From Flavobacteriales bacterium (GTDB lineage Bacteria; Bacteroidota; Bacteroidia; Flavobacteriales_G; Salibacteraceae), in contig JAGQYO010000008.1 of the NCBI GenBank assembly GCA_020435995.1, positions 32,662-96,661 on the forward strand: DNA of 64,000 nt, read 5' to 3'. A program made the translations under genes and the position numbers. The notes under the pieces were generated by a model, which worked only from the letters and a program-made list of their open reading frames with translations, was not told where the DNA came from and searched no databases. Within the stretch, counting starts at the first letter, position 1; each line of letters begins with the position of its first letter. Positions 8,700 to 62,378 of this stretch are shown in pieces.

Positions 8700-9736
8700 T
8701 CCATTTGCTGATGAACAGCGTAGTTCCTCCATTTATCCAAAACCATTTCCATATCTGATGGAAGGTCGCTGTTAAAATGTAAAAATTTTCCGGTAGTGGG
8801 GTGCTCAAAGCCCAGGGTTTTGGCGTGAAGGGCTTGTCTTGGCAATAATTTAAAGCAATTTTCAACAAATTGCTTGTACTTCGCGAAAGTAGTACCCTTT
8901 AGTATTCTATCCCCACCGTAGGTTATGTCCCCGAATAAGGGATGTCCTATAGATTTAAAATGTGCCCTAATCTGATGGGTTCTTCCTGTTTCTAATTTAC
9001 ACTGAACAAGTGTAACATAACCGAATTTTTCTATGATCTTGTATCTCGTAACGGCAGGTTTTCCGAAGCTTTCGTCATCGAATACGGTCATTATCTTTCG
9101 GTCCTTTAAACTTCTTCCAATATGACCTTCAATTATTCCTTCTTCTACAGGTGGCTCTCCCCAAATAAGAGCGTAGTAAAACCGTTGAGAAGTTCTGTTA
9201 AAAAACTGCCGCGCTAGGTGAGTCATGGCAAGTTCAGTTTTTGCAACCACCATGATGCCTGTTGTCATTTTATCTAATCTGTGTACAATACCGGGTCTGT
9301 CTTCTTGATCACGTGTCGGAAGATTTTCTAAGTGGTAGAGTAGCGCATTCACTAGTGTGCCCGATTTATTGCCATATCCAGGATGACAAACCAGTCCAGC
9401 GGGTTTGTTGATCACCAGCACTTGCTCGTCTTCAAATACAATATCTAAAGGAATGTCTTCGGGCCGAAGGCTGGTTTCTTGTTCGGGCTTGGTCATGTAA
9501 ACCAGAATTTGATCGCCAGGCCTTACTTTATAGTTTGATTTTACTATGCTTCCGTTGACAATAATACAGTTGGACTTGGCGGCATTTTGAATTCGGTTGC
9601 GAGAGGTATTCGAAACGCGGTCTATCAAAAATTTGTCTATCCGAAGGGGTTCTTGCCCTTTGTCGGCTACAAAAGTGAGTTCTTGTAATTCTATGTCGTC
9701 ATCCTCTGAAAAGGAATCTTCTAAATCTTCCTTCAC
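8696..9736 (-). CDS. RluA/RluD-family 23S rRNA pseudouridine synthase
   Basis: Isomerises uridines in rRNA, most likely the RluD-type 23S sites. The 346-residue protein has an acidic N-terminal tail, an S4 RNA-binding domain at about residues 31-80 and the catalytic motif HRLDKMTTG with Asp155, followed by GRTHQIRAH. The start codon is GTG, sharing one base with the upstream stop (TAGTG); there is no internal Met near the N terminus to replace it. It is the last gene of a three-gene operon with a T9SS cargo protein and a PASTA protein, a grouping often seen in Bacteroidota. Confidence 0.9.
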   Translation of the reverse strand: MKEDLEDSFSEDDDIELQELTFVADKGQEPLRIDKFLIDRVSNTSRNRIQNAAKSNCIIVNGSIVKSNYKVRPGDQILVYMTKPEQETSLRPEDIPLDIVFEDEQVLVINKPAGLVCHPGYGNKSGTLVNALLYHLENLPTRDQEDRPGIVHRLDKMTTGIMVVAKTELAMTHLARQFFNRTSQRFYYALIWGEPPVEEGIIEGHIGRSLKDRKIMTVFDDESFGKPAVTRYKIIEKFGYVTLVQCKLETGRTHQIRAHFKSIGHPLFGDITYGGDRILKGTTFAKYKQFVENCFKLLPRQALHAKTLGFEHPTTGKFLHFNSDLPSDMEMVLDKWRNYAVHQQMD

Positions 9737-11940
9737 TATCTGGAGATCATCAATTTTTTGGTAGATGTCGAACCAGATTCGTCTGATACTCGAACTATAT
9801 ATAATCCTACTTCTAGTTGGTCAATTTGAATTGTTGAAGATCCAGTCGTTTCATTCAACACCAATCGGCCTTTAGTGTCATAGATGTCAATTGAAATAAT
9901 CGTTTTATCTGTTGAGATGTTGAGCATGTTGCTCGCTGGGTTAGGATATAATTTTACGTCGCTTGTGGAGGGAATAATTGTTTCTGATTCGAGTGGTTCT
10001 TCTTTCCCATTGCCAAAATCAGCTCTAATCATAATGGTACCTTGATAAATGCTTTTGGACCATCGACCTGGAACTTCCGAAACAAATGTTTTGTCTTGGT
10101 TGTTGTAGTTTACATCGTAGCCAACGTAGGTTTTATTTTGGTCATATTGCTCCCAACCAATATAAAATTTTCCGTCTACGATAATGTCTTCTGGCAACAC
10201 ATACCGATGAAACCGCCCTGCCGATGTTTTTACAACGTCAATTGGTCCGCTTTCATATATGGCGCTCGATCCAAGAGTCTTGTACACCTTTAGTTTTATT
10301 TTGTGAAAGGAAACAGGCTCGAATGTTTCCACAAAATTGATAAGAATTCCTCTTAAGGTATCGCTAACTGGCGTTTCAAACTCAACAGCTAGGTTGGTTC
10401 CCACCAAATTTAAATGATATGTTTTTTCAGCAGAATAGTCATCATAACTGTAATAGCGATCAAATATTTGAATGTGTACCAAGGTATCGTTTTCGCGAAA
10501 TTGGTCGTTCGACGAGAATGTTTGGCTCACTACTCTAAACCATTGTCTTTCGTGATCATCCAAGGGAAACGTAAAATTATTTGACCCACCCCTCAACGTC
10601 ATCGGAATCTTGTACTCTCCATTAATAGGCACATTGGGGTATTGCTGAAGCGAAGAAACAAAAGTGCTATTAAATTCTGCTGCTCGGTAAACCTTATAGC
10701 GTGCCTCAGCAATATCTGGTTTCTTGCTCAGGTTGCGCATGTGCAAGTTAATGGTGTCGCCAGTAAATTCCCAGGGATTGGTTTTATAATGTTCCCACGG
10801 CATCGAAGTGTAATTCTTAATCGTAGTTCGTATAGGTTTTGAAATGGCAAAGTCTTCAATTTCGTCGAACAATTCTCGTTTTTCATCTAGGTGGATATAA
10901 TCTATGTGCCAATGGTCGAAGTTACCGGAAAGTGTTGCGTAATTCTTGAAGCGAAATTTAAATCCCTTTTGTAGATATATAGTGTCTTTTATATGAAAAA
11001 AAACTTGTTTAAAAGGGGCTAATGAGTCCAACTCATTGGACCAAATGGTTGACCATTGTTTGGTTATGGGCGAGAAAAAATCCAGTGTAAGTGAATCTAC
11101 TTTTTCGGGCCTATCACCATATCCCTGGGCTTGATAAAAAAAGCTGAGATAAATGGAATCAGAAGAACCGTATCTTATGGTTTGTCCGCTAATTTTTTTA
11201 CCGTATAAATTGATGGGTTTCGATTCAAATTCATCGGCTTTTCCAAAGGTGAGTTTGCTGCTGTTGTCGTAAGGGTTGCCGTTGCTGTCGAGTCCATCAA
11301 AAGTGATGATTCCAAGGGTAGGAGGGTCTACCGCCATGGTTCTGTTCCAAAAAGCTCCGCGGCTTATCCAATAGGAGTAGTTATCGTCACGTGCAAAATA
11401 ATGGGCTTTTCTTAAATTGTAAATAATGGTATCAGGCGTAATATCGATTTTACGAGTAATTCCATTTTGCGTGAACAAATGGTAATTTCTGTGCACATAA
11501 AATTGATCTGTAAGGAAGAATTCTCTAATGCTATCGCCATAGTAGTTCACCAACATCGAATCGGCCTTACTTGAGTCTAATTTCCCAGTAAATGGGTTGA
11601 GAATAATGTTGTAAGCTGGTTCAAATCGGTATTCCAATGAATCTGGACTCTGTCCATCAACGGTAAACTTAAAACTGGCTGAATCAAAAACGGCAGGATC
11701 ATCTAATGAAACCGGAAATATTTTTAATCGGTATTTGGTGAAGTCATCAATTACTGGCAAATTCAGGGTGTCGTATAAATAGATGATTTCGTTATCATTT
11801 GCTCCAGCGCGAGAAGATTGAATTGCATTTTGCGATTGCTGTTCTGGCCTAAAGGGTAATTCACCCAATTCCTCCTGCGCCATTACCGGCCCAAATATGA
11901 GAAACAATACAGAAAATATATAGAGTTTAATAGCTGACAT
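9736..11940 (-). CDS. Secreted protein with T9SS type A sorting domain, function unknown
   Basis: The 734-residue protein starts with a signal peptide (cleavage near VMAQ, residue 21) and ends with a type A sorting domain (LYPNPASNML near residue 660, ending KKLMISR), so it should cross the outer membrane through T9SS. The middle part is rich in Tyr, Asp and beta-strand patterns and includes jellyroll-like stretches. I recognise no catalytic motif. It overlaps the PASTA gene upstream and the pseudouridine synthase downstream by one base each, so all three are co-transcribed. The linkage to a PASTA wall-sensing type protein hints at an envelope role, but that is inference. Confidence 0.82.
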   Translation of the reverse strand: MSAIKLYIFSVLFLIFGPVMAQEELGELPFRPEQQSQNAIQSSRAGANDNEIIYLYDTLNLPVIDDFTKYRLKIFPVSLDDPAVFDSASFKFTVDGQSPDSLEYRFEPAYNIILNPFTGKLDSSKADSMLVNYYGDSIREFFLTDQFYVHRNYHLFTQNGITRKIDITPDTIIYNLRKAHYFARDDNYSYWISRGAFWNRTMAVDPPTLGIITFDGLDSNGNPYDNSSKLTFGKADEFESKPINLYGKKISGQTIRYGSSDSIYLSFFYQAQGYGDRPEKVDSLTLDFFSPITKQWSTIWSNELDSLAPFKQVFFHIKDTIYLQKGFKFRFKNYATLSGNFDHWHIDYIHLDEKRELFDEIEDFAISKPIRTTIKNYTSMPWEHYKTNPWEFTGDTINLHMRNLSKKPDIAEARYKVYRAAEFNSTFVSSLQQYPNVPINGEYKIPMTLRGGSNNFTFPLDDHERQWFRVVSQTFSSNDQFRENDTLVHIQIFDRYYSYDDYSAEKTYHLNLVGTNLAVEFETPVSDTLRGILINFVETFEPVSFHKIKLKVYKTLGSSAIYESGPIDVVKTSAGRFHRYVLPEDIIVDGKFYIGWEQYDQNKTYVGYDVNYNNQDKTFVSEVPGRWSKSIYQGTIMIRADFGNGKEEPLESETIIPSTSDVKLYPNPASNMLNISTDKTIISIDIYDTKGRLVLNETTGSSTIQIDQLEVGLYIVRVSDESGSTSTKKLMISR

Positions 11941-23695: not shown

Positions 23696-24931
23696 ATGAA
23701 CAGACTCAAGTTTTTAGGGCCAGGATTGTTATATGCAGGAGCCGCAATTGGTGTTTCTCATTTGGTGCAATCCACCAGAGCTGGTGCTGATTTTGGTTTG
23801 GTTATGATATGGGTAATCGTGCTGGCCAATTTAACCAAATATCCGTTTTTTAGAATGGCGCCACTGTATGCGGGTATTCGTGGTGAGAGCTTGTTGCACG
23901 GGTATTTTGGACTCGGCCGTTGGGCTGTTTGGACTTTTTTGGTGTTAACCATATCAACCATGTTTGCAGTAATTGCGGCTATTACAGTTGTTACGGCTGG
24001 CCTAGCGGAACAAATTTGTGGCTGGCAGATAGAGATGCGGTATTGGGGTGTTATTTTGTTGGCGATATCTACCGGTATTCTGCTTTTCGGCAAGTATGCT
24101 ACCCTCGATCGGTTTATTAAGGTGGTCATTTTGATTTTGAGTGCTACTACTCTTATTGCGTTTTTGATGGCCATAAATATTCCTGACAAAACCGTTGAGA
24201 TTCCCGAGGCTTTCGATTGGTTTAAAAAGGAGCACATATTCTTCTTAATAGCCTTTGTAGGGTGGATGCCTGCCCCAATGGATATTTCTGTTTGGCATTC
24301 GGTGTGGGCCATCGAAAAAAGAGATACAAATCGCAAAGAATTTACTTTAAAGAAATCGCTTTTAGACTTTAATATTGGCTTCGTAGGCACTGTTTTTCTT
24401 GCTATTTGTTTTTTGGTTTTAGGGGCTAAAGTTTTTTATGGATCGGGTCAAGAAATGGCGAGTAGTGGGGTAGCATTTTCTGGTCAACTTATCAATGTTT
24501 ACAGCCAACTATTGGGCAAATGGGCTTACTTTATTATTGCTATTGCCGCATTCACAACCATGTTTAGTACCTGCATTACCTGCCTTGATGCTTTTCCCAG
24601 AGTTGTGAGTGAAAGTTTGGTTAGGGTGCAAGAAAACGAGGAACTCAATAAATTGAAATATTATAAGATGACGTTGATGATATTGGCTATCGGCGCACTT
24701 GGTATCCTATTTTTTTGGCTCCAAAACATGAAGCAAATGGTTGATTTTGCGACAACGGTTTCATTTATCACCACGCCCATTTTAGCATCTTTGAATTATA
24801 TGACCATGAAGAATTTAATCAATACGGGCCAATACAAAATGGGAATCGTAGAGCGAGTCGCTATTTGGCTTGGTTTCGTATTTCTTTACGGCTTTGCTCT
24901 GTATTATGTAGTCCAGAGATTTGTTTTGTAA
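23696..24931 (+). CDS. Nramp-family-like membrane transporter with altered metal site
   Basis: A 411-residue integral membrane protein with about eleven helices and the Nramp opening LGPGLLYAGAAIG. In classical Nramp proteins, TM1 carries DPGN, whose Asp and Asn bind the metal. The aligned position here is GVSH (residues 19-22). The TM6 MPHN-like motif is MPAP (residues 191-194), which keeps the Met. The metal-binding Asp and Asn are therefore absent, so substrate and ion coupling are uncertain. It stands alone, divergent from priA; the nearest promoter-like element is TAGTTTTA. Family membership is clear, transport of Mn or Fe is not. Confidence 0.85.
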   Translation: MNRLKFLGPGLLYAGAAIGVSHLVQSTRAGADFGLVMIWVIVLANLTKYPFFRMAPLYAGIRGESLLHGYFGLGRWAVWTFLVLTISTMFAVIAAITVVTAGLAEQICGWQIEMRYWGVILLAISTGILLFGKYATLDRFIKVVILILSATTLIAFLMAINIPDKTVEIPEAFDWFKKEHIFFLIAFVGWMPAPMDISVWHSVWAIEKRDTNRKEFTLKKSLLDFNIGFVGTVFLAICFLVLGAKVFYGSGQEMASSGVAFSGQLINVYSQLLGKWAYFIIAIAAFTTMFSTCITCLDAFPRVVSESLVRVQENEELNKLKYYKMTLMILAIGALGILFFWLQNMKQMVDFATTVSFITTPILASLNYMTMKNLINTGQYKMGIVERVAIWLGFVFLYGFALYYVVQRFVL

Positions 24932-25826: not shown

Positions 25827-28451
25827 ATGTTTAGGTTTTTGGTTTTTGGTTCGATATTATTTGGTTTTTCAGGGTTTGGCTTTAGCCAGGCTTCACAAAA
25901 TGAATGGGCACAAGAAGACATAAGCATTGAAGAACTAAGAGCGCAGGAGGAATCTGAAAGAGAAAAAGCAGAGGCCTATGCCATACAAATTGGCGCACCA
26001 CTTGAATATACTACAAGTGATGGAGCTTTTGTTCAACTAGTTGGTTTTCATAGTGATGGAAGTTTAAAATACTATATTACGGATAACCGCAATGCAGCCA
26101 AAACAATTTCTACGAATAAGGTGCATTTGAATGGTGGATTGGGGTTAAACCTCGAAGGACAAAATATGACCATAGCCGAATGGGACGGCGGAGATGTATT
26201 GCAAACGCATACCGAGGTCTCAGGTAGAGTAACCGATAAAGATGGTGCAACAGGGGTGCATTACCACGCTTGTCATGTTGCAGGAACATTGATTGCTCGT
26301 GGAGCATCAACGTCAGCAAAAGGCATGGCACCACAGGCAAAATTGTGGGCCTACGATTGGTACAGCGATGATTCAGAAATGAGATCAGCAGCTTTAAGTG
26401 GCATTTTGGTTTCGAATCATTCGTATGGTACTGTTGCAGGCTGGACTTACAACGGTAGTTGGTCGTGGAGTGGAAATACTTCTATTAGTAGTTCTGAGGA
26501 TTATAAATTCGGTTTTTATGAATTGTCTGCGCAGTATTTTGATGAAACAGCTAGGCTACGTCCAAATTTACTAATCGTTAAGTCGGCAGGTAACGATAGG
26601 GATGATGGTCCGAATCAAACTACGCCAAAAAATGACCCTACTTATGGATCAGTTCATAGCCAAGCATGTGCAAAGAACAACCTTGTTGTGGCCTCCGTGC
26701 AAGACATTACATCGGGCTATTCTGGAATTAATTCGGTTCAGATGTCAACTTATTCGTGCTGGGGACCCACTGATGATGGCCGTATTAAGCCAGATATTTC
26801 TGCCAATGGGGAACGCGTCTATTCTATGTGGGATGGTAAAACTAAAAACTATGAGTACTCGTTAGGAACCAGTATGGCGGCACCAAACGCAGCTGGGTCA
26901 GCTCTTTTAATTCAGCAGCATTACAAAAATGTAAACAATGTTTATGGCAGGTCAGCTACCATAAAAGGATTGATTATTCATACGGCCGATGAGGCTGGAG
27001 GCAATGAAGGGCCAGATTACCGTTTCGGTTGGGGCTTAATGAATACAGCCAAAGCAGTGCAAGCCATTTCGTCGAGCAATGTAGAAATTGAAGAAAAAAC
27101 CCTCACATCAGGAACTAAAAATGATATTAAAGTTTCTGTTAAAGGAAATACTTGGGTGAGAATTACATTATGTTGGACCGACTGGGAAGGAACAGCTCCA
27201 AGTCCTTCGCTTAACCCCACTACTTTAATGCTCGAAAACGACTTGGATGTTCGATTGATTCACTCTGATAACACGACTTACTATCCCTATATATTGAATC
27301 CATCAGTGCCTGCTGCTGCAGCTACCAAGGGAGATAATTTTAGGGATAATGTGGAGCAGATTTATGTTCAAGTTCCTAAGGCTGGTAATTACACTATTAG
27401 AGTAACCCACAAGGGTTGGCTAGTGGGATCAAGTCAACCGTATTCAATCATCTATGAGAATTTTGAACCGCCCAATGACGTGACCTTTACCATGTCTAAA
27501 CGAGATATTTGTAAGGGCGACACCGTATTTTTTGCCAATACTACTCAATTTGCCTTTAACTCTTTGAGATGGGATTTTCAGGGTGGTCATATTCAAAATT
27601 CAACCTCATCAAATCCTTATGTGGTCTATAATTCAACCGGACGATTTGGCGTTAAATTGAATATATTTCAAGGAACTCAGACCTTAGACAATTATGATAG
27701 TGTAAACGTGCATGAGCATCCTGAAGTGACCATTTTGAATAACAAAACGTTTTGTTTACCCAACCTGAAATACGAGACGATTTTGGCCGATGTGCCCACA
27801 GGTAAATGGAATGGATATCCGTGGATGGTTCGAACCGACAGTTGTGTGTTTAGACCAAGTTCGTTGGGTGCAGGAGACTATGGATTGAAATATACATTTA
27901 CCAATTTGTACGGTTGTAAAGGGTCGGATTCTACCACAGTTAAGATTCGAAATTCACCAACTGCTAACTTGTATGTAAATCCAAGGAGCGTATGCCAAGG
28001 GGATACACCATTTCTGCTTACTGGAGGAACACCTACAGGGGGTAGGTATTTGGTGAATTCAAGTTTGATAAACCAATTCGATCCATCTAATTATGCGGTA
28101 GGGAATCATGAGGTGCGCTACGAAATTGAAGATGCAAATGGATGTATTGGATATGGTTTAGATGAGATCTTAGTAGATATTTGTGAAGGCATTGAGGCAG
28201 GAAGCGCAAATGCTGATAAGTTTCAATGCTATCCGAATCCTTTTTCAACTGGAATGAACATTAGGGGAGATTTGAAAGCGGTAACACAGATATCACTCAC
28301 CAATATATTTGGAGAAAAGGTTGCGGAAGTTATTGGTCCATTCAAGTCGAACTCGTGCTTTCTTGAATTAGGAAATTTGCCCATCGGCGTTTATTACTTA
28401 ACCGTAGAGGAGGCAGAAGATTCCTTTATTCAAAAAGTTGTTAGGCAGTAG
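25827..28451 (+). CDS. Secreted S8 (subtilisin-family) serine protease with T9SS sorting domain
   Basis: An 874-residue exported protease. Signal peptide residues 1-20; a propeptide-like acidic stretch to about 100. The catalytic triad is visible as Asp120 (EWDGGD), His147 (HACHVAG, where most subtilases have HGTHVAG) and Ser349 (GTSMAAPN), with the oxyanion Asn256 in SAGND. A P/proprotein-like beta domain follows (about 420-550), then PKD-like segments and a type A sorting domain (CYPNPFSTGMN near residue 805, ending IQKVVRQ). It should be secreted by T9SS and degrade extracellular protein. Its 3' end overlaps the convergent bufC-like gene by 11 bases. Confidence 0.92.
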   Translation: MFRFLVFGSILFGFSGFGFSQASQNEWAQEDISIEELRAQEESEREKAEAYAIQIGAPLEYTTSDGAFVQLVGFHSDGSLKYYITDNRNAAKTISTNKVHLNGGLGLNLEGQNMTIAEWDGGDVLQTHTEVSGRVTDKDGATGVHYHACHVAGTLIARGASTSAKGMAPQAKLWAYDWYSDDSEMRSAALSGILVSNHSYGTVAGWTYNGSWSWSGNTSISSSEDYKFGFYELSAQYFDETARLRPNLLIVKSAGNDRDDGPNQTTPKNDPTYGSVHSQACAKNNLVVASVQDITSGYSGINSVQMSTYSCWGPTDDGRIKPDISANGERVYSMWDGKTKNYEYSLGTSMAAPNAAGSALLIQQHYKNVNNVYGRSATIKGLIIHTADEAGGNEGPDYRFGWGLMNTAKAVQAISSSNVEIEEKTLTSGTKNDIKVSVKGNTWVRITLCWTDWEGTAPSPSLNPTTLMLENDLDVRLIHSDNTTYYPYILNPSVPAAAATKGDNFRDNVEQIYVQVPKAGNYTIRVTHKGWLVGSSQPYSIIYENFEPPNDVTFTMSKRDICKGDTVFFANTTQFAFNSLRWDFQGGHIQNSTSSNPYVVYNSTGRFGVKLNIFQGTQTLDNYDSVNVHEHPEVTILNNKTFCLPNLKYETILADVPTGKWNGYPWMVRTDSCVFRPSSLGAGDYGLKYTFTNLYGCKGSDSTTVKIRNSPTANLYVNPRSVCQGDTPFLLTGGTPTGGRYLVNSSLINQFDPSNYAVGNHEVRYEIEDANGCIGYGLDEILVDICEGIEAGSANADKFQCYPNPFSTGMNIRGDLKAVTQISLTNIFGEKVAEVIGPFKSNSCFLELGNLPIGVYYLTVEEAEDSFIQKVVRQ

Positions 28452-29208
28452 TTCGGTAGCCAAGAATGAATCCTTTTTCTATCATTTGATTAATCCACTT
28501 AGAAATTTGATCCTCAATTTCAGGGGTGAGTTCAAGTTGAAGCATCGCGCATGTGTCGAGCGCGGCTAAATGTAGATTTTTAGAGCTGTTCAGTTGCCCC
28601 ATTAGCGTACCAAAAAACAAAGGGAATTCCAGCACTTTTACGTTGAGTTTTTTTAAATCACGCAGGAGTATAACGCAATAATTTCCTATTTCCTTTTGGG
28701 CATCGCGCAAGGGCATTTTATGTATAGGGTATGAAAGGTTAATGAGGTAATAATAAGGGTTGAAAACCAGGTCATCCAGCCTCCAATTTCCGTGGTTTAT
28801 TGTTTTTGGTATTTCTTGATCTGCACCATTGTAAACAACTATTTCGGCCCACTCAAACTCCAAAAGTTGGGTCAGAAATGGAAATTCTGTTTTTTCGCTT
28901 ATGTCAGCATTTTTTACCCAAATGAGCAGCTCTTCGGGCAGTTTCCAAACTTGATAATGTTGGCATTTATGTTCTATAAAAAACCGTTGTAAAAATTCCT
29001 TCCAGCGATCCCCAAACAAATTTCGAGTGATGGGGTAGGCATTGGTCATAATATCAAATATGACATTGAACACTAGTCTTCTATAATTGTGAAGGCGATC
29101 GGGGAGTGCCCCTTTAATTTCCTGCGTTTTACCTGTTTTACAATACTCGGCAAGCTGAGATTGAATGCGGTGCGTTTCAGGATTCAACGAACGGGCTGCT
29201 TTTTCCAT
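28441..29208 (-). CDS. BufC-like DUF2063 partner protein of a MNIO enzyme
   Basis: A 255-residue protein of the DUF2063 family, recognised by the N-terminal region with YRRLVFNVIFDIMTNAYPI and the FEWAEI core, and by its position directly after a DUF692 gene. In bufferin-type RiPP loci such proteins (BufC) bind the precursor and assist the MNIO enzyme in cysteine modification. The ATG lies inside the end of the upstream gene (25-base overlap), so translation is coupled. It is the last gene of the operon. No catalytic residues of its own are apparent. Confidence 0.85.
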   Translation of the reverse strand: MEKAARSLNPETHRIQSQLAEYCKTGKTQEIKGALPDRLHNYRRLVFNVIFDIMTNAYPITRNLFGDRWKEFLQRFFIEHKCQHYQVWKLPEELLIWVKNADISEKTEFPFLTQLLEFEWAEIVVYNGADQEIPKTINHGNWRLDDLVFNPYYYLINLSYPIHKMPLRDAQKEIGNYCVILLRDLKKLNVKVLEFPLFFGTLMGQLNSSKNLHLAALDTCAMLQLELTPEIEDQISKWINQMIEKGFILGYRTTA

Positions 29209-30005
29209 GCTTTTGAAGTAATTGATTTTAATTGCCCAAGTTCTTTTTCTAAAAAGGGTAGTTCGGGAATGTTAAAGTCGCGCTCTAACAAAACGGGAAC
29301 AGGTGAAATTTGTCTGCTAGTCCATTCAAATAATTCAAATACGGGGTCAATAATATCTTGGCCGTGTGTGTCAATAATGAGGTCGTCGCTAATTTTTTCG
29401 TGGCCAGCCATGTGAATGTACTCCACATGATTTAATGGCAATTGAAGAATAAATTCTTTGGAAGAGTATCCGTGGTTGAAGGAGTTGACATACACGTTGT
29501 TGACATCCAATAGTAGTTTACAATTGGCGTTTGTGACTATTTGAGAAATAAACTCGTGTTCCTCCATTTCGGCAGCTACCGAGGTGTAGTAGGATACATT
29601 TTCAATTATCAAAGGTCTTTCAAGCATCTCTTGCACTTCTTTGATGCGAGATACAATATGGTTTACCGCATCTTGCCTGAACGGAATGGGTAACAGGTCA
29701 TAAAGGTGGGCATTGTCGCATTTGCTATAGGATAAGTGCTCAGAATACGTTTTCACCTGATAGCGGTCCAAAAATACTTTGAGCTCCTTTAAAAACGCGT
29801 AATCTAATTTATCGGGACTTCCTATGGACAGTGACAAGCCGTGGCAGAATATAGGGTATCGTTCGGCAATTTGATCTAATTGAGTTTTCCAATAGCCGCC
29901 AAGATTCATCCAGTTTTCTGGTGCCAATTCCACGAAGTCGAAGGCATCACCCTTGTACGCTATCATTTCTTCCGCAAGATCACGCCTAAACCCTAATCCA
30001 ATCAT
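29184..30005 (-). CDS. MNIO (DUF692) cysteine-modifying iron oxygenase, BufB-like
   Basis: A 273-residue TIM-barrel protein of the DUF692/MNIO family, multinuclear iron enzymes that use O2 to modify cysteines or other residues of precursor peptides. Candidate metal ligands, placed by family motifs, are His55 (FCHGLSLSIG), Glu89/His90 (YSEHLSYS), Glu135 (IENVSYY), Asp167 and Asn170 (LLLDVNN), His198 (IHMAGH), Asp212/His214 (IDTHG) and Glu241 (LLERDFN). ATG 30005 is preferred over TTG 30011, which lies in the T-tract of the terminator just upstream. Coupled to the DUF2063 gene; the likely substrate is the adjacent Cys-rich precursor. Confidence 0.92.
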   Translation of the reverse strand: MIGLGFRRDLAEEMIAYKGDAFDFVELAPENWMNLGGYWKTQLDQIAERYPIFCHGLSLSIGSPDKLDYAFLKELKVFLDRYQVKTYSEHLSYSKCDNAHLYDLLPIPFRQDAVNHIVSRIKEVQEMLERPLIIENVSYYTSVAAEMEEHEFISQIVTNANCKLLLDVNNVYVNSFNHGYSSKEFILQLPLNHVEYIHMAGHEKISDDLIIDTHGQDIIDPVFELFEWTSRQISPVPVLLERDFNIPELPFLEKELGQLKSITSKAWKKQPVR

Positions 30006-30009
30006 AATC

Positions 30010-30043
30010 AAAAAAAAGCCCCATCCCAGTATTGGGATAGGGC
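30010..30043 (-). terminator. Strong intrinsic terminator between precursor and MNIO genes
   Basis: On the minus strand a fully paired 11-bp stem (GCCCTATCCCA with TGGGATGGGGC, one G-T pair) and a 4-base loop ATAC are followed by eight T residues that end 4 bases before the MNIO start codon. Transcripts from the precursor gene must pass it to reach the enzymes, so enzyme level is probably set by read-through. Confidence 0.88.
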
Positions 30044-30067
30044 AATTTAGCTATTAATATTTAGAAA

Positions 30068-30463
30068 TTAGTGTGTTCCACATTTTCCCTCACCACATTT
30101 TCCTTCACCGCACTTAGCTTCTTTTGTTTTGTCGTCGCCTGCCTTAGTAGCTTTGTCTTTTCCAGCTTCTTTGGTTTCTTTTTTTGCTTTAGGAGCTTTT
30201 GCGTCTTTGTCTGTAGCCTTGCCATCTTTTCCTTTTCCTTCGCCACACTTGCCTTCACCACATTTTAATTCTGAAGAAGTGTTGTCGATAAATGCTGATG
30301 CAGAGCCATTCAAGTTTAGGATATGAGATCGTATCTCAGATCCACTGCCCAGATCATTCACTTGAAATAGATCATTCGAGTTGGCATTTAAAGAAAGAGC
30401 ACCAATTGCTAAGGTACCTGTAGCCAAAGCGGCTAATTTTTTCATGTTTTCATTTTTTTTCAT
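30068..30463 (-). CDS. Bufferin-like RiPP precursor with two Cys-Gly-Glu-Gly-Lys clusters
   Basis: A 131-residue exported peptide. The signal peptide covers about residues 7-28; a second Met at residue 7 is an alternative start. The mature part has five cysteines and no others: Cys68 and Cys73 in a KCGEGKCGEGK cluster, and Cys118, Cys123 and Cys128 in the C-terminal KCGEGKCGEGKCGTH. The 44 residues between are a Lys/Ala/Asp/Thr linker. EGKCG motifs are the hallmark of bufferins, whose cysteines are converted by MNIO enzymes into copper-binding groups. The MNIO and DUF2063 genes follow behind a terminator. A promoter with one mismatch (TTACTTTG, minus strand) lies about 40 bases upstream. Copper sequestration in the periplasm is inference from the family. 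Confidence 0.85.
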   Translation of the reverse strand: MKKNENMKKLAALATGTLAIGALSLNANSNDLFQVNDLGSGSEIRSHILNLNGSASAFIDNTSSELKCGEGKCGEGKGKDGKATDKDAKAPKAKKETKEAGKDKATKAGDDKTKEAKCGEGKCGEGKCGTH

Positions 30464-52835: not shown

Positions 52836-52939
52836 ATTTCGATGCTGTGCTTTGGTACCCGTATTCTTTCGCTAATTGACAATCAAAATGGTGCAATAAC
52901 GCAGTATTCATCAATTGAACAGGTTGCGTATGGATTCCT

Positions 52940-52947
52940 TAAATTCG
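52940..52947 (+). promoter_or_regulatory. Probable -7 box (TAAATTCG) for the first M1 peptidase gene
   Basis: One mismatch to TAnnTTTG, 5 bases before the ATG at 52953, with TTG at 52915-52917 as a possible -33 element. It supports that start over one further upstream. Confidence 0.5.
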
Positions 52948-52952
52948 CCCAA

Positions 52953-55301
52953 ATGAAAACAATATTTTCCGCCTTTATTATTCTGTTATGGATAGCAACC
53001 CCTTTGTTATCACAAACCCAATGGACGGCTTCAGAAAATGAACGCAGTGATACCATTGATATTCTAGCGTATAAAATCGAATTGGATTTATCCGATAATT
53101 CCAATTCGATTAAGGGAATCTGTGAAATTACCTTCCAACCTAAAATAAAAGGTGTAGACAGATTGAACTTGGATTTACTGGAGTTGCAAATTGACGCAGT
53201 AACAGATACTGCTGGTACCACACTCCCTTACCAATATAATGATTCGGTACTTTCGATAGAGATAGACACAAATATGGGAACCAAAAAAGTAAAAGTTGAA
53301 TATCACGGCGTGCCTTTTCATGAGGGGTGGGGCGGTTGGCACAACCAATCTGGATATACTTTCAATTTGGGTGTTGGGTTCAAGTCCATTCCCCACAATT
53401 TGGGCAAAACATGGCACCCTTGTTTCGATAATTTTGTAGAACGTGCCAAGTATACGGTTGCCATTAAAACTTCGGGAGGTCGAATTGGTGTAGGAAGTGG
53501 AATTCTTCAAAAAACGGACACGCTCGGCGGGGATACCACAGTGAATCATTGGATGCTCTCACAGACCATCCCTACTTATTTGTATGGAATATCCATTACA
53601 AATTATAAAGAGCTGAAGAGCTCGGTGCAAGGGTTAAATGGAATGGTTCCTATCTCGCTATTCGCAAGGGCAAGTGATACCAACGCAATGAAAGCATTGA
53701 CGCGAAATTTGGATACCATTTTCCATATTTTCGAGAATAGATTCGGCCCATATTTATGGGATAAAATAGGTTATCAAGTAACGCCTATTGGAGCAATGGA
53801 ACATGCTACAAATATTTCAATTCCTTTGGGTATTCCAGAATCAACCGTTGCACACGAATTAGCACATCATTGGTGGGGAAATTTGGTGACCTGTGAAACG
53901 GACCGAGACATGTGGATTAATGAGGGTATGGCCGTCTTCTGCGCTTATGTTTATCACGAGGATTTATATGGAAGGGCTAATTATCTTCAAGAATCGCGAA
54001 GCGATCACTATGATGTTGTAAAAAATGCGCACTTGGTTGATGGAGATTATTTCCCTCTTTCTGGTGTTCCCAGGGTGCATACTTACAGCAGCTACCATGT
54101 GTATAAACGTGGGGGATTAATAGCCAACAATTTGAGAACTTATTTAGGTGACCAAGATTTTTTCAATGGAATGAAAGCTGTTTTGGATTCATTTAAATTT
54201 AACTCAGCCAACAGTTATGATATTAAAAGAGTTCTAGAAAAATCTACGGGGAAAGACCTTACGTCGTTTTTTGATCGATGGATATTTGAACCGGGTTTTC
54301 CTGATTTTGTGGTTGAAGATGTGCTATTGGAGCCTCGCTCTGGCTTAAATAAGTTGAGTTTTACTTTGCGGCAGTTGATGGGTGGAAGTAACGCGTTGTA
54401 CTCAGAGGTTCCTTTAGAAGTAACCTTAATGGACGAATATTGGAACACCGAAGTTCAAAACATCGTGATGAATGGGAGCACAAAATCATTTGAGCTTATG
54501 AGTCCTTACGCGCCCACAAAAGTGTTTTTAAATTCTGACCGAAAATTGAATTATGCCATGACCTTTGATGAAGATATCCTTACAAGCCCAAGAGTGGTTT
54601 CAACTCAATACACCGATTTTACCGTGCGCTGCACACAACTCGCTGACTCAGCTTTTGTACGGACAGAGGCGCATTGGGCTGGAGCCTACATTAACCCCAA
54701 AAATGCGGCTGTATTAAAAGCACGTATTCAACACAACCGACACTGGCGGGTAGATGGGTTGGCAAAAGGATCTGATAAATTTACAGGTCAGATAATTTTT
54801 AATGCGAAAAAAGCAAGCTATGATTACGGATTGGTAAAATCTGCTGAAGATAGTGTAGTCTTACTTTATCGAAAAAACTCAGCAGCCGAATGGGAAATTC
54901 ATTCAAATTATGAATTAATTGTTGCCCTACCGGGTGACAGCATAGGCATTATAAAAATTAATGATCTCCAATTTGGCGAATTTGCTCTCGCTGAGAGGGA
55001 TACATCAATAAAACTGCTTCCAGATGCTGTTCCCAAAGAAGAGCGAATTACCTTATCCAAGGTTTTTGTCTATCCAAACCCTACCAGCAATATGCTAAAT
55101 TTTGATTTCACAGGATCTCAAACTTTTGATGAAGTGGTCCTATTGAATTACCGAGGGATGGAAGTTAGGAATGAGCCAATTACAAAAGCCTTGCTCTTGC
55201 AAATGGATGTAAAAGAAATAAAAGACGGTGTTTATTTTTATTTATTAAAAAACCAGAATGAGATTAAGGCATACGGAAGATTCGTTAAAGTTTCTCAGTA
55301 G
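52953..55301 (+). CDS. Secreted M1-family metallopeptidase with T9SS sorting domain
   Basis: A 782-residue secreted aminopeptidase-like protein. Signal peptide cleaved near LLSQ (residue 20); an M1 N-terminal beta domain; substrate motif GAMEH (280-284); zinc site HELAHH with His301, Glu302, His305 and Glu324 in WINEG; then a beta domain and a type A sorting domain (VYPNPTSNML near residue 707). All catalytic residues are present. ATG 52953 starts the signal peptide, unlike the longer frame. It overlaps the second M1 gene by 44 bases. Confidence 0.9.
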   Translation: MKTIFSAFIILLWIATPLLSQTQWTASENERSDTIDILAYKIELDLSDNSNSIKGICEITFQPKIKGVDRLNLDLLELQIDAVTDTAGTTLPYQYNDSVLSIEIDTNMGTKKVKVEYHGVPFHEGWGGWHNQSGYTFNLGVGFKSIPHNLGKTWHPCFDNFVERAKYTVAIKTSGGRIGVGSGILQKTDTLGGDTTVNHWMLSQTIPTYLYGISITNYKELKSSVQGLNGMVPISLFARASDTNAMKALTRNLDTIFHIFENRFGPYLWDKIGYQVTPIGAMEHATNISIPLGIPESTVAHELAHHWWGNLVTCETDRDMWINEGMAVFCAYVYHEDLYGRANYLQESRSDHYDVVKNAHLVDGDYFPLSGVPRVHTYSSYHVYKRGGLIANNLRTYLGDQDFFNGMKAVLDSFKFNSANSYDIKRVLEKSTGKDLTSFFDRWIFEPGFPDFVVEDVLLEPRSGLNKLSFTLRQLMGGSNALYSEVPLEVTLMDEYWNTEVQNIVMNGSTKSFELMSPYAPTKVFLNSDRKLNYAMTFDEDILTSPRVVSTQYTDFTVRCTQLADSAFVRTEAHWAGAYINPKNAAVLKARIQHNRHWRVDGLAKGSDKFTGQIIFNAKKASYDYGLVKSAEDSVVLLYRKNSAAEWEIHSNYELIVALPGDSIGIIKINDLQFGEFALAERDTSIKLLPDAVPKEERITLSKVFVYPNPTSNMLNFDFTGSQTFDEVVLLNYRGMEVRNEPITKALLLQMDVKEIKDGVYFYLLKNQNEIKAYGRFVKVSQ

Positions 55302-56892
55302 AATTGTATTTACAGCCCTGTTGTTTGGGGCATTTCCAATATTGGGAAAAACCCAAGATCACTATCCACGCGATAGGGGATTTGATGTTACGAAGTACAC
55401 CTTTCAATTAGAAGTAACGGATACTAACGATTCGATTTTTGGCGAAGCGAACATCGCTGTTGAGCTGGATGCTCATGTGTCATCCATTTTTTTTGATTTG
55501 ACTAATGTAGATGACCAGGGCAGGGGAATGTTAGCATATCACGTTTCTTCCAAGCGAGTAAGGCTGAAATATGTACATGAAAAAAACCTAATCACTGTAA
55601 AATATCCAGAGGCACAAACGATCAAAACCAAAGACACAATTACGATAAGGTACAAGGGAATACCGTCGGATGGCTTAATTATTTCAAAAAATAAACATGG
55701 TGACCGAACTTTTTTTGGGGATAATTGGCCAAATCGAGCGCACCATTGGATTCCAGTAGTGGATCATCCAAGTGAAAAGGCATTTATAGAATTCTCTGTC
55801 TTTCACCCACCTCATTATCAAGTGGTTTCCAATGGTGTATTACAAAGTGTAATAGATATTTCGAAGAGTAGACGGCAAACTACTTGGGCTTCCTCTAGAG
55901 AGCTTCCCTCAAAAGTGGCAGTGGTTGGTGTTGCCAGATTTGCCGTTGATTATGTGAGGCAGGTCAATGGGCACATGGTAAGTTCATGGGTGTATCCCCA
56001 AGATGCCGAAAATGGGTTTTATGATTATGCTTTATGCGCTGATATTCTAAATTATTTTGAAAACAAAATAGCGCCCTATCCCTTTGAAAAGCTGGCCAAC
56101 GTACAATCGAAAACGAGGTATGGCGGGATGGAGAACGCCGGCTGTATATTTTATAATGAAGGCTCTGTTAATGGAAAAAGATCCAGCGAGGAACTTTTCG
56201 CTCATGAAATTGCACATCAGTGGTTCGGGAATTCCGCAAGCGAGGCAGATTGGCATCACGTGTGGTTGAGTGAGGGCTTTGCAACTTACCTCACGGAGGT
56301 TTATAAGCAAGAAGTAAAAGGTGAAGAATCCTTTAAATCGGGAATGGAGGACGCACGCAAAAGAGTGTTGAGGTATTATTCGAAGTTTCCTGATGGATCT
56401 ACTATCGACACCAGCATAACAGAACTTACTGGGCTGCTTTCACCTATGACCTATCAGAGAGCAGCGTGGGTTTTACACATGTTGAGAACAAGGGTAGGAG
56501 ACGCTGTATTTTGGAAGGCTGTTAAGGCCTATTATTCTGATTTTCAGTTTAGAAACGCGTATAGCAATGACTTAAAAGAAATATTTGAAAGGGCCTCTGA
56601 TATGGATTTGACTGAGTTTTTTGAAAAGTGGCTTTACCAACCGGGTATGATTAAGGCTGATATCAAATGGACGTTTGATGAGGAGGATAAAACGTTGATG
56701 GTTGAGGTGTTGCAGCCAAAAAATGCTTGGTTCCCGTGGAGTGCGGCCATCACTATTTTTGATCAAAACGGAATGAGTTACAATTCTGGAATATTACACT
56801 CCGATGAAAGACGTTTTGTAACTTCTATTTCGATGGAGAGTCCACCAAAAAAAGTAGTATTCGATGCCGAAAATAACCTCCTAAAATGGTAA
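55258..56892 (+). CDS. M1-family metallopeptidase (second copy, no sorting domain)
   Basis: A 544-residue M1 protein. N-terminal hydrophobic signal segment (about 12-30), the GGMENA motif (289-294), zinc site HEIAHQWFG with His316, Glu317, His320 and Glu339 in WLSEGFATY, and a C-terminal peptidase-associated helical part. Unlike the copy before it, there is no T9SS tail, so it probably stays in the periplasm or is lipid-free exported. ATG 55258 lies inside the previous gene. The two share the zinc and Glu motifs but differ in the exopeptidase motif (GAMEH versus GGMENA). Confidence 0.88.
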   Translation: MRLRHTEDSLKFLSRIVFTALLFGAFPILGKTQDHYPRDRGFDVTKYTFQLEVTDTNDSIFGEANIAVELDAHVSSIFFDLTNVDDQGRGMLAYHVSSKRVRLKYVHEKNLITVKYPEAQTIKTKDTITIRYKGIPSDGLIISKNKHGDRTFFGDNWPNRAHHWIPVVDHPSEKAFIEFSVFHPPHYQVVSNGVLQSVIDISKSRRQTTWASSRELPSKVAVVGVARFAVDYVRQVNGHMVSSWVYPQDAENGFYDYALCADILNYFENKIAPYPFEKLANVQSKTRYGGMENAGCIFYNEGSVNGKRSSEELFAHEIAHQWFGNSASEADWHHVWLSEGFATYLTEVYKQEVKGEESFKSGMEDARKRVLRYYSKFPDGSTIDTSITELTGLLSPMTYQRAAWVLHMLRTRVGDAVFWKAVKAYYSDFQFRNAYSNDLKEIFERASDMDLTEFFEKWLYQPGMIKADIKWTFDEEDKTLMVEVLQPKNAWFPWSAAITIFDQNGMSYNSGILHSDERRFVTSISMESPPKKVVFDAENNLLKW

Positions 56893-58785: not shown

Positions 58786-61700
58786 ATGAATGATTATCGA
58801 AACTCCCAGGGACTGAGAATTCTTATTACGGCAATTTTTGTTGCCTATGGTTCAATTGGTTTTAGCCAACTTTTTGAGCTCAATAAAAGCACCGAAGTGC
58901 TTTTTGGTACACCGGTTACAGTGACTCATTTTTCAGCAGTGGAAGACGGGAATGGAAATTTATATCATCTTGGAACTACATTTAATAGCCAAGAAAAATT
59001 TAATCTTTTACTAACTAAGTTTAACGAGAACAACAACATAGAATGGGAAATTGAACTTGACAATGCTAGTCGAAATGATTATGGGGTCAGCATTTGTTTG
59101 TCGCCTATGAATGACATTATTATATCGGGAGCAACAGTCGACACTCTAACTGACACCTCTTCCATCATTTTGGCTTCGATTGACATAAATGGAAATGTTA
59201 ATTGGCAAAACGTTTATAATCCCCTTAGTTCATTACATAGTTATCCTACCAAAGTAATTTGCGATAATAAAAATTATTTTTTTTGACTAGCACAGGCCAT
59301 TTTCAAGGTTCAAATCTTGATGTAATAGCTTCAAGATTTTCTATAACGGGGGGCTTAGAATGGGAATTGAACCATGATGAATCAGGAAATATTGACCAAA
59401 GCATCGATTTTCAGTTTGCAGGGAATGGGAATCTGAATGTAATAGGACTTGCTCAAGATGTCAACGAAGATTACGGTTTGTTGACTTTAGAATATTCAAT
59501 CTACGGCAATTTAATAAATTCTATTTATAATTCTTTTAGCACATCCATGGATCAACCATTGGGTATTCGGGTTGATGGAAACGACAAGTATATTTATGGG
59601 AATAAAATAAACAACAACGCCAATTCAGATTTTTGTTTGGGAAAATTGGACCAATACAATAACTTAAACTGGACGACGACATTTGACTTTGCTGATGATG
59701 ATGATTTTGTGAATGACATTCAAATTGACAACCTTGGCAATGTTTGGATGTTGGGCTATGGAAATAACGGAGAGGGAGGAAAAGATATGTTAATACTAAA
59801 AGTGGACTCAGCTGGCAATCAGTTGGACACAATAGAATTTGGTATGGTGAGTAGGGATGATGAAATTGAAGGGCAGAAATTATTTATTGATGAAGATCAT
59901 TTTTTTACTGCGGGAACATTATTAGACGCTACAAGCGGAAAAAAGGGATTTTTTGTATTCTCTTATGATGAGTACATGAAAATTGAGTGGACAACATTTT
60001 GGAATGAGCCTAACAGTACTCCAAAAGGAGTGGCTAATATTTTTTTGGACGAAAACAACCAAAGTATTGTACTTTATGGATTTGTTGAAAACTTGAGCAA
60101 TAACAGCTACCTTCAAATTGAATGGCAATGGATAAAGAGACCAATTGACAAAAAAATACTGGGATCGGGGCTTACAGAATATGTAGAAGGGGAGTTGATT
60201 GTAGAAGTTAATCCTGAATATGTGAAAACTGATTTTGCGAATAACAAAGAACTCACATTTGGTAACCTTTATGACGCACTCGACAGCTCATTTGTTGATT
60301 CAATTGATTCAAAAATTGGTTCTTTTGTTTCTTTAATCGACATTCGAGTAGTTAAAATAAATCCAGAGTTTACAACTATAGACACGCTAAGCTTGGCACG
60401 CACGGGCAATTGGATTCCAATGCCACCTTTGTATAACCAATTTGTATTTGTATTTTATTCTGCTATCGATGAAATTGAAATATCGGGTTTTCTTAATGAA
60501 CTAGAAGAAATTAATTATAGCGAAATAAATGTTTTTCCAACCTATATGAGTACGCCCAACGATTCTGAATTAGTGGACGACCAACAAGCTTCTCTTGTAC
60601 CTAGTTCTACCGACCCCGGAAGTCACATAGGAATGGATGGAGCTTGGGATATAAATACCGGAGCCGACTCCATTAAAATTGGCATTTTTGATTCGGGCGT
60701 TCAGTGGTTGCACCATGATTTGACGCCTGGAAGAAAAGAAGATCCTGATTTTTCTAAGTGTTTAGGCTTTGATTTTGAAACTTCACCTCCAGAAAGCTTT
60801 ATTAGGAAGAGTTTAGATTTTAAATTCGATGCCGGAGACCATGGGACGAATGTAGCCGGAATTGCTGGGGCCACCAGCAACAATCTTTTTGGCATAGCAG
60901 GAGTAGCGGGCGGCAATTGGGCCAACTCAAGCTATGGATGTCCGTTATACGTAGCCAGACTTTCCAAGGTAACCAGTACTGGCCCAAGAATATTGCCGAT
61001 TTCAAATCATGTAACCGCACTTTATAAATTTGGAGTACAAAGCAATACTGGTATAGGAGAAGGTGTTCATGTGATGAATCATTCTTATGGTTTGCTTCGA
61101 AATTTTCCTTGGCCATTTGATTTTGGGCATAACGATACTTCCGTAACCTCTTTTGCCAAAGCCTTTCAGTTTGCCGCAAGAAATGGGGTCGTCCAAGTGG
61201 CCGCAAGAGGAAATGAGGCTAATGCAGTGTCTTCTTTTCCCGCATGTTATGACGATAGTTGGGTAATAAATGTAGGCGGATACACCCGCAATAGGGATGT
61301 ACACCCTCAAAGCTCTTTTGATAAAGGTGTGGACATCATTGGCCCCATGCATGAAGATCAAATTTGTACGATACATCCTTATAACCCTACTCAAATCAAT
61401 TATTCTTTTAATGGCACTTCGGCTGCAGCTCCCCACGTGAGTGGCGTAGCCGCATTGGTGTTGAGTGAGTTTAACGACAAAAGTCCACTGTACGAAAACC
61501 TAAGTGGAGAAGACGTAGAATATCTATTACAGAAATACACCTATAATTCAAATTGCTCTAGCTATCCTGACCCAAAATGTGGGTGGGGAGCGCTCAATGC
61601 CGCTGCCATACTGGAGCACATAGAATACCCTTATTATCGGATAGATCATTTCCCCAAAGGTGGCGAAGGAAAAAGTTTTATTTCTTCCACATCTGCTGGA

Positions 61701-62348
61701 GTTGTTTCTGTTAAATTGGTGGAGGCTTGGAATGGTATTCCCAAAGGGACATATACTGCTACTGCAAGAGATATCTTGGTTCAAGTTTCACATTCTATTC
61801 GCTCGGCAGATCAATTGCTAGGATATTGGCTACGTCCAAATTTTTGTACTGGGCTCCAATTAGCTCCCGCATCTGGTACCATTATCCTACCTGCTATTCA
61901 GGGTGGCCAGTTGGTAAGTTGTAATACAACTGTGGCGGTTATCAAAACTAGAATTTATGAAATTAGCTATGGTGGAAACACCTATCCATATCCTGGTACT
62001 TGGAATCAATTAGACTATAGCTACGGTGTTCATTTATATGATTCAAATGCAACTAATGGTGATTTTCATACTGAAGTTATTGAATTAAAAAACAATCATT
62101 CCCTCAGGGTTTACCCCAACCCTACCCGCGATAAAATAAATATTTCGTTTAGCTTGGAGCAACCCGAGAGCATAGGGTTCCGTCTTATTGATGCCAGAGG
62201 CGTAGAATATTGGCAAAAACAAAGCAGTGATTTAATGGAAAATCGATATAAGTATGAAATAGATATGTCCAACTTACCAGTAGGTGTTTACACCCTTATA
62301 ATGTCTTCTACAAGTTTCTATACCTCTCGAAAAATTGTAAAACAATAA
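58786..62348 (+). pseudogene. Secreted S8 subtilase with T9SS domain, frame interrupted at a T8 tract
   Basis: Two frames, 58786-59286 (166 aa, signal peptide cleaved near GFSQ) and 59283-62348 (1,021 aa), read as one protein of about 1,187 residues. The break is at eight T (59277-59284); nine T would restore it, giving YFFLTSTG. The first part and the start of the second form one beta-propeller-like repeat region. The second has the triad Asp (IFDSGV, codon 60690), His (HGTNVAG, 60840) and Ser (NGTSAAAPH, 61419) and a type A sorting domain (VYPNPTRDK). The T-run matches a -1 slippery site (T TTT TTT), so it may be phase-variable, frameshifted, a true pseudogene or a sequencing error. Confidence 0.8.
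59277..59284 (+). repeat. T8 homopolymer at the frame break
   Basis: Eight T preceded by TTA and followed by GA. In the first frame it reads TAT TTT TTT TGA (stop). One extra T, or a -1 slip on T TTT TTT, leads into the long downstream frame. Confidence 0.85.
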
Positions 62349-62378
62349 AATTAATGGGTTCGATACGTACCATTTTAT
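62109..62378 (+). repeat. Direct repeat, copy 1: sorting domain, junction and next gene start
   Basis: This 270-bp segment matches 63731-64000 at a constant offset of 1,622 bp. The first 71 bp (62109-62179) and the last 53 bp (62326-62378) are identical to the second copy; the middle differs at scattered positions. It covers the T9SS domain, the stop, the 5-bp gap and the first codons of the following gene. Confidence 0.9.

Follow-up and report, generated by a model that had tools for sequence, protein, structure and literature searches.

Results

A three-gene operon on the minus strand

We analysed a stretch of 64,000 nucleotides, here called the window, from the genome of a Flavobacteriales bacterium (Bacteroidota). 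At 28441-30463 on its minus strand lie three genes in the order precursor peptide, MNIO-family enzyme and DUF2063 partner protein (PME-type 1, PME1). The initial annotation had described an operon of a signal-bearing precursor, an MNIO gene and a DUF2063 gene, all in one direction, for a ribosomally synthesized and post-translationally modified peptide (RiPP) in a Bacteroidota genome. This description is correct, and all three genes are where it placed them. Its genes and motifs, their co-occurrence and the conservation of a hairpin are observed. The operon is real and conserved; its kind is known, and the branch to which it belongs is new and well marked.

The precursor gene (30068-30463) encodes 131 residues, five of them Cys; it is an open reading frame (ORF) with relatives, and it adjoins an MNIO gene in these relatives as well. 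The MNIO gene (29184-30005) begins with ATG, and an alternative TTG start is possible 6 nt farther upstream. Its HvfB-like (DUF692) product matches the Pfam family MbnB_TglH_ChrH (PF05114; 334 bits, 6.3e-100) and the structure 3BWW (1.3e-68), and it scores over the cut-off of the NCBIfam HvfB model NF003818 (384.9 vs 360 bits). The start of the partner gene (28441-29208) overlaps the end of the MNIO gene by 25 bp.

Ligand-type positions are conserved in the window enzyme. It also has Arg7-Arg8 and Asp243-Phe244, which correspond, by motif and not by the FonB sequence itself, to determinants of the Lys-Cys MNIO FonB; Arg15/Arg16 and Asp249/Phe250 of FonB are tied to Lys-Cys substrates (PMC13097082). 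An Arg plus Arg/Lys pair was found in 62 of 62 clade loci (the clade is defined below) and in 41 of the 42 other loci of a profile scan with the MNIO, and the Asp-Phe pair in 57 of 62 and 42 of 42, respectively. Neither pair occurred in 11 distant MNIOs, the first pair lying outside the alignment in 3 of the 11. Since the specificity residues match the Lys-Cys type, the predicted targets of the enzyme are KCG sites such as the precursor offers, whose Cys residues it would convert.

The partner matches DUF2063 with 48 bits (Pfam cut-off 27.2). It is predicted to carry the fold of a RiPP recognition element (RRE), an assignment made from its modelled fold, which resembles 3DEE/TglI. The list of PDB entries compared with it is only a second look at the Foldseek ranking and excludes nothing; a PDB sequence search with the partner gave 0 matches.

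The precursor peptide

The precursor begins with a likely Sec signal peptide, recognized by eye, at about residues 1-29 (30377-30463), with a K-rich start followed by the hydrophobic stretch LAALATGTLAIGALSL; the peptide is thus likely exported via Sec. Next comes a conserved segment, LFQVNDLGSGSEIRSHIL (residues 32-49, 30317-30370), which is likely the leader. AlphaFold2 gave a poor model of the precursor (pLDDT, the predicted local distance difference test, 51), in which the best-predicted stretch is a helix at residues 40-53. The Cys residues are Cys68 and Cys73 in a first cluster, ELKCGEGKCGEGK (30233-30271), and Cys118, Cys123 and Cys128 in a second, EAKCGEGKCGEGKCGTH (30071-30121). The two clusters are joined by a Cys-free, Lys/Ala/Asp-rich linker (residues 78-114, 30122-30232) that is variable in relatives (alignment A4).

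All five Cys residues are in KCG, in three EGKCG, one ELKCG and one EAKCG context, compared with a maximum of 3 KCG in 200,000 shuffles of the residues. The count of five in the initial annotation stands; its placement of all of them in C-G-E-G-K holds for four, the last being in C-G-T-H. The stretch KCGEGKCG (residues 117-124) is invariant across 43 aligned sequences. Relatives reach an identity of 61% by BLASTP or 64% in the alignment, and a large-database search gave 226 proteins at E<=0.001, 120 of which were analysed. A Pfam scan of the precursor found no family at E<=0.001, and hence no DUF2282.

A branch with its own conserved segment

A profile search of genome contigs with the MNIO alignment gave 589 loci, the best 80 of which were named. 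A script found a precursor at 67 of these 80 (none at two of L062-L099 and eleven of L100-L141). In a tree of 73 MNIOs, 53 rows form a clade apart from 20 rows of Gammaproteobacterial type, with a support of 99 in the Shimodaira-Hasegawa-like approximate likelihood ratio test. The clade rows are Bacteroidota, plus rows titled Ignavibacteriales, Verrucomicrobia, Waddliaceae and Beijerinckiaceae. The tree took 20 of the 44 loci outside the clade, namely 18 of L100-L141 plus L142 and L143; the duplicate loci L065, L069, L073, L083 and L087 were left out of the tree, the residue comparison, the precursor-motif counts and the control gaps described below.

The precursors divide in the same way as the MNIO tree. 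The core pattern [LM]G[STNED][GAS]-x(1-3)-[ILVMA]R is present in 54 of 58 clade precursors and in none of 31 others, and F-x4-[LM]-x2-GY is present in 29 of the 31 others and in none of the 58. Both motifs follow the hydrophobic stretch and precede the Cys part. Of the four clade precursors that miss the core pattern, L017 and L020 carry the segment outside the scanned stretch, and L032 and L095 lack it. The window precursor also fits F-x4-[LM]-x2-G, suggesting that the clade and non-clade motifs may be one diverged element. Among the 120 database relatives, 110 have the strict form of the segment and the other ten match a looser form by eye. Against a single diverged element, Leu outnumbers Phe at the F position of the 110 (0.58 vs 0.37). 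These relatives are not independent, because they were found with the window precursor as the query. Clade precursors contain 2-9 Cys residues (4-8 in 52 of 58) and the others 4-14 (9-12 in 20 of 31). Gly directly follows 326 of the 336 clade Cys residues.

Of 42 genomes of the order, 21 have the MNIO gene, and the DUF2063 gene is found in precisely these 21. The clade MNIO was found in 20 of 35 genomes of the family, in 20 of 395 genomes from the class (matches of at least 56% identity) and in 8 of 395 genomes from an even sample of the phylum (E<=1e-70). The initial annotation would have been refuted by a lack of precursor-like EGKCG peptides near close MNIO homologues. This check did not refute it: a KCG-repeat peptide was found at the MNIO loci of 19 of 19 other genomes in the family (L003-L021).

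Three loci with more distant MNIOs were seen in passing. A 4 kb contig of genome G004 (L022:237-2185) carries a distant MNIO (39%), a DUF2063 gene and a six-Cys precursor, with a LysR-like gene upstream; it resembles another bufferin type and is perhaps foreign to that genome bin. Near two distant Bacteroidota MNIOs (36-38%), L036:2373-2969 and L038:744-1343 encode similar proteins of ~198 residues with 14-15 Cys residues and no obvious signal peptide, which are possibly another substrate class.

A hairpin between the precursor and MNIO genes

A hairpin element (30010-30043), likely a partial terminator, is located between the precursor stop and the MNIO start. Its stem-loop, GCCCTATCCCAATACTGGGATGGGGC (30018-30043), has 11 pairs and is followed by eight T, and the stem ends 12 nt before the MNIO ATG. 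In the other clade gaps the sequence differs and the hairpin is kept. Compared with shuffled sequences (100 per clade or other gap, 60 per control gap), the folding z-score was -2 or lower in 52 of 55 clade gaps and -3 or lower in 46 of 55, with a median of -4.1. It was -2 or lower in 14 of 31 other gaps (30 of L100-L141 plus L095; median -1.8) and in 19 of 117 control gaps (median -0.3), the controls being 40-150 nt gaps between co-directional genes of the clade loci and the window. From the clade and other gaps, those with N, shorter than 25 or longer than 400 nt, or with identical first 40 nt were excluded. Fisher tests gave 3e-24 for clade against control, 4e-7 for clade against others and 0.001 for others against control. 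The gaps outside the clade fold better than the controls, and the hairpin may thus predate the branch. A strict terminator pattern was found in 8 of 19 family gaps, 13 of 32 clade gaps of the profile scan (these sets overlap) and 3 of 34 others, compared with 0.5, 0.8 and 1.7 in shuffles. The shuffles and the 117 control gaps speak against a chance structure, and this reading was rejected.

Genes around the operon

An extracytoplasmic function (ECF)-type sigma gene is present at 33 of 58 relative loci, mostly directly upstream (31 of 53 without duplicates). DoxX is found downstream of the partner at 18 of 58 (18 of 53), and a small Cys/His-rich protein at 21 of 58 (20 of 53). The 58 loci include the five duplicates, four loci titled as other phyla and some early-ending contigs. 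The sigma and DoxX groups were linked by BLAST, with one member of each tested by Pfam (Sigma70_r2 and r4 for the sigma group). The small Cys/His-rich proteins are putative anti-sigma factors by their position and a ZAS-like Cys/His pattern; Pfam gave no match over cut-off for two small proteins beside sigma genes. An Acinetobacter ursingii plasmid (L143:1271-4901) carries a KCG-repeat precursor, an MNIO, DUF2063, a sigma-70 factor, a zf-HC2 protein and DoxX, indicating that the sigma shell also exists in Gammaproteobacteria, on a plasmid. A Moraxella sp. plasmid (L142:2793-3965) encodes a near-identical MNIO, with an IS4 transposase gene between the MNIO and partner genes. Since an ECF gene has already been described next to the Neisseria NGO1945 locus (PMC2954202), the sigma link as such is no novelty.

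Four upstream neighbours of the window operon (CarboxypepD_reg-like, two SPOR-type and LOG-type) have homologues in L043, L044, L051 and L054, all of which are without sigma gene and DoxX. The window and these four loci lie within one tree group of 12 (support 83) and do not form their own clade; two rows of the group have a sigma gene (L045 and L081). On other contigs of the window genome, three proteins match DoxX at E<=0.001, two of them over the Pfam cut-off; the one at G000:C128 is 43% identical over 98 residues to the DoxX of L062 and might serve this operon. About 3.5 kb from the operon, an Nramp-type transporter is encoded at 23696-24931 on the plus strand (PF01566, 58 bits). Homologues with 51-53% identity lie near the operon in L044, L051 and L054, and the placement is probably local synteny.

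Elsewhere in the window, six large proteins have a C-terminal Por_Secre_tail (type IX secretion), two subtilases and one M1 peptidase among them (25827-28451, 9736-11940, 52842-55301, 59547-62348, 62354-63970 and 7-2913). Two M1-family peptidase genes adjoin at 52842-56892.

Discussion

We propose, with a probability of roughly 70%, that the joint product of the three genes is a thiooxazole peptide of the EGKCG (captophorin/oxazolin) kind that is exported and binds copper. Transcripts begun upstream of the precursor would mostly end at the hairpin as precursor mRNA, and a minority would extend across the MNIO and partner genes, which overlap, so that little enzyme meets much peptide. The RRE of the partner would hold the precursor N-terminus, consisting of the signal peptide and the LF-x4-LGSGxE(L/V/I)R-x2-(L/I)(L/I) segment, and present the KCG sites to the MNIO. 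The MNIO would turn up to five Cys residues into 5-thiooxazoles, each with a change of about -4 Da. Sec export and signal cleavage would then yield a flexible two-headed peptide, with two copper-binding groups on one side of a Lys-rich linker and three on the other, which may act as a copper sink in the periplasm or outside the cell. The window lineage would manage this with neither an ECF sigma gene nor DoxX at the locus, both present in many relatives. The expression ratio, recognition, chemistry, export and copper role are each likely, judging from characterised relatives or the sequence. More tentatively, and with somewhat less than even odds in our estimate, the Bacteroidota branch may have a private leader code, LF-x4-LGSGxE(L/V)R-x2-L(L/I), a co-evolved RRE partner and an RNA attenuator that fixes a large peptide excess for a stoichiometric metal sink.

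Several observations weigh against this proposal and are considered here together with the alternatives. The precursor falls below the cut-offs of the NCBIfam HvfA models NF050137 (18.8 vs 19.5 bits) and NF050188 (18.0 vs 95 bits), and the partner below that of the HvfC model NF050145 (96.0 vs 142 bits). The role of the conserved segment can be read differently. It follows the likely signal cleavage site and would stay on the product, and it could serve the mature, exported peptide as a docking site for an envelope partner. In FonA, every Ala variant ahead of the core was tolerated (PMC13097082). L032 lacks the segment and keeps a sigma-like gene, MNIO, partner and DoxX, and the KCG precursors of the Moraxellaceae plasmid loci L142 and L143, which are outside the 31, have neither motif; these three loci indicate that the segment is not strictly needed. 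However, nearly all other EGKCG precursors have a different motif at this place, as expected if the element is adapted to its own RRE. HvfA stripped of its signal sequence was poorly modified (PMC13419390), suggesting that its N-terminus acts as a leader. Published work gives the signal peptide a leader role and also shows tolerance of single variants ahead of the core; the segment may be the docking signal for the partner. We consider docking to the envelope a serious though somewhat unlikely alternative to the likely leader.

The hairpin could be a full terminator or a stabiliser of the mRNA 3' end, with the MNIO-partner pair transcribed from its own weak promoter within the precursor gene. 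Every one of the 55 clade gaps has a stem of 8 or more pairs, and a T-run of at least 4 at the 3' foot is found in only 35 of them (6 of 31 others). Stems of this length also occur in 24 of the 31 other gaps. Around the window operon, 3 terminator-like sites were found compared with 2.6 in shuffles, which is no excess, and the case for the hairpin therefore rests on its shared place. On the other hand, the room behind the hairpin is short, with a clade median of 27 nt from the hairpin end to the start of the MNIO match and none for a promoter in the window, making partial read-through the likeliest route to the enzymes. Within the precursor gene, this strand shows no sigma-70-like site, although the consensus used is not one for Bacteroidota promoters; a promoter search upstream of the precursor gave no lead. 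Full termination or 3'-end stabilisation thus appears unlikely to us. Partial read-through would give much peptide and little enzyme, and the hairpin likely keeps enzyme levels below peptide levels. Intercistronic attenuators of a similar type exist in lantibiotic operons.

It is also conceivable that the peptide is made and modified as proposed and serves another purpose, such as handling another metal or oxidative-stress buffering, with copper not the main ligand. The initial annotation had noted that neither a DoxX gene nor a copper gene is nearby, and rightly so: there is no DoxX among the window ORFs, and a Pfam scan of the 50 non-overlapping, ATG-started window ORFs of at least 110 residues revealed no copper-specific family. 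The window operon also lacks a sigma gene and a small Cys/His-rich gene, and the best candidate for a trans ECF sigma ortholog in the window genome was rejected with only 32% identity over 66 residues. The ECF-type sigma gene beside the operon in many relatives and the nearby Nramp-type gene fit another stress or metal, and a role in other stresses is allowed for in PMC12452194. The Nramp gene, however, is on the opposite strand and belongs to a neighbourhood that is conserved more widely, and the EGKCG products characterised so far are generally copper binders (PMC13097082). A purpose apart from copper is quite unlikely in our view, and a copper sink is preferred. That the product is an unmodified Lys/Cys-rich protein beside an MNIO by chance is scarcely credible: most named matches among the 120 database relatives are called 'uncharacterized low-complexity protein', but the precursor gene keeps its MNIO and partner genes beside it across both Bacteroidota and Gammaproteobacteria.

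With this operon, a class of metal-binding RiPPs that was named only recently gains a well-marked branch in Bacteroidota. This raises two concrete questions, whether the shared segment is a docking signal for the partner and whether the hairpin meters the enzyme against the peptide. In other respects the operon is an ordinary representative of its known kind and not a new mechanism. Our literature searches on MNIO, EGKCG, captophorin/oxazolin and DUF692 sigma topics found no paper on this branch. The term 'Bacteroid' is absent from the main texts of PMC12452194, PMC13097082 and PMC13419390, whose taxon charts or supplements may count such sequences.

Comparison with known systems

Methanobactins (MbnABC) share the MNIO family and the copper theme with the window operon and differ in the precursor; membership was rejected with 51 vs 325 bits for the MbnB model. 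The ChrH-type MNIOs of Bacteroidota are covered by PMC12636315. The chryseobasins made with them share an MNIO, a signal-bearing precursor and the phylum, and have the Cys motif CPxCGxG of their own; no obvious conserved partner is reported in that paper for clusters of Bacteroidota other than Chryseobacterium. The window enzyme scored 66 vs 600 bits with the ChrH model, and this assignment was also rejected.

The label 'bufferin-type' in the initial annotation comes close to the kind of operon and is loose as a name. Bona fide bufferins (Buf1 with DUF2282, Buf2 with 6 or 12 Cys residues) are separated from Buf_EGKCG/oxazolins in PMC12452194. They share with the window operon a signal-bearing precursor, an MNIO, a DUF2063 partner and the stress and copper theme. 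In contrast to them, the window precursor has no DUF2282, five Cys residues (2-9 in the clade) and Lys-Cys rather than Cys-Lys sites, and the MNIO is under the cut-off of the BufB model NF050167 (283.8 vs 310 bits), so that membership in Buf1/Buf2 was rejected.

MNIO-PME1 products are grouped as captophorins in PMC13097082, with a separate Lys-Cys (EGKCG) class. By its sequence, the operon is of this EGKCG/oxazolin (captophorin) kind, and its chemistry and copper binding would be those of the kind. It shares with the Lys-Cys captophorins (fontiphorin FonABC, oxazolin HvfABC and gonophorin) the gene order, a signal-bearing precursor, repeated xxKCG sites, the MNIO specificity residues and the predicted partner fold. 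The window operon differs from them in lacking DoxX and in the NCBIfam scores of its precursor and partner. The clade as a whole is set apart by its own segment after the signal peptide, fewer Cys residues, Cys blocks split by linkers and the hairpin before the MNIO gene.

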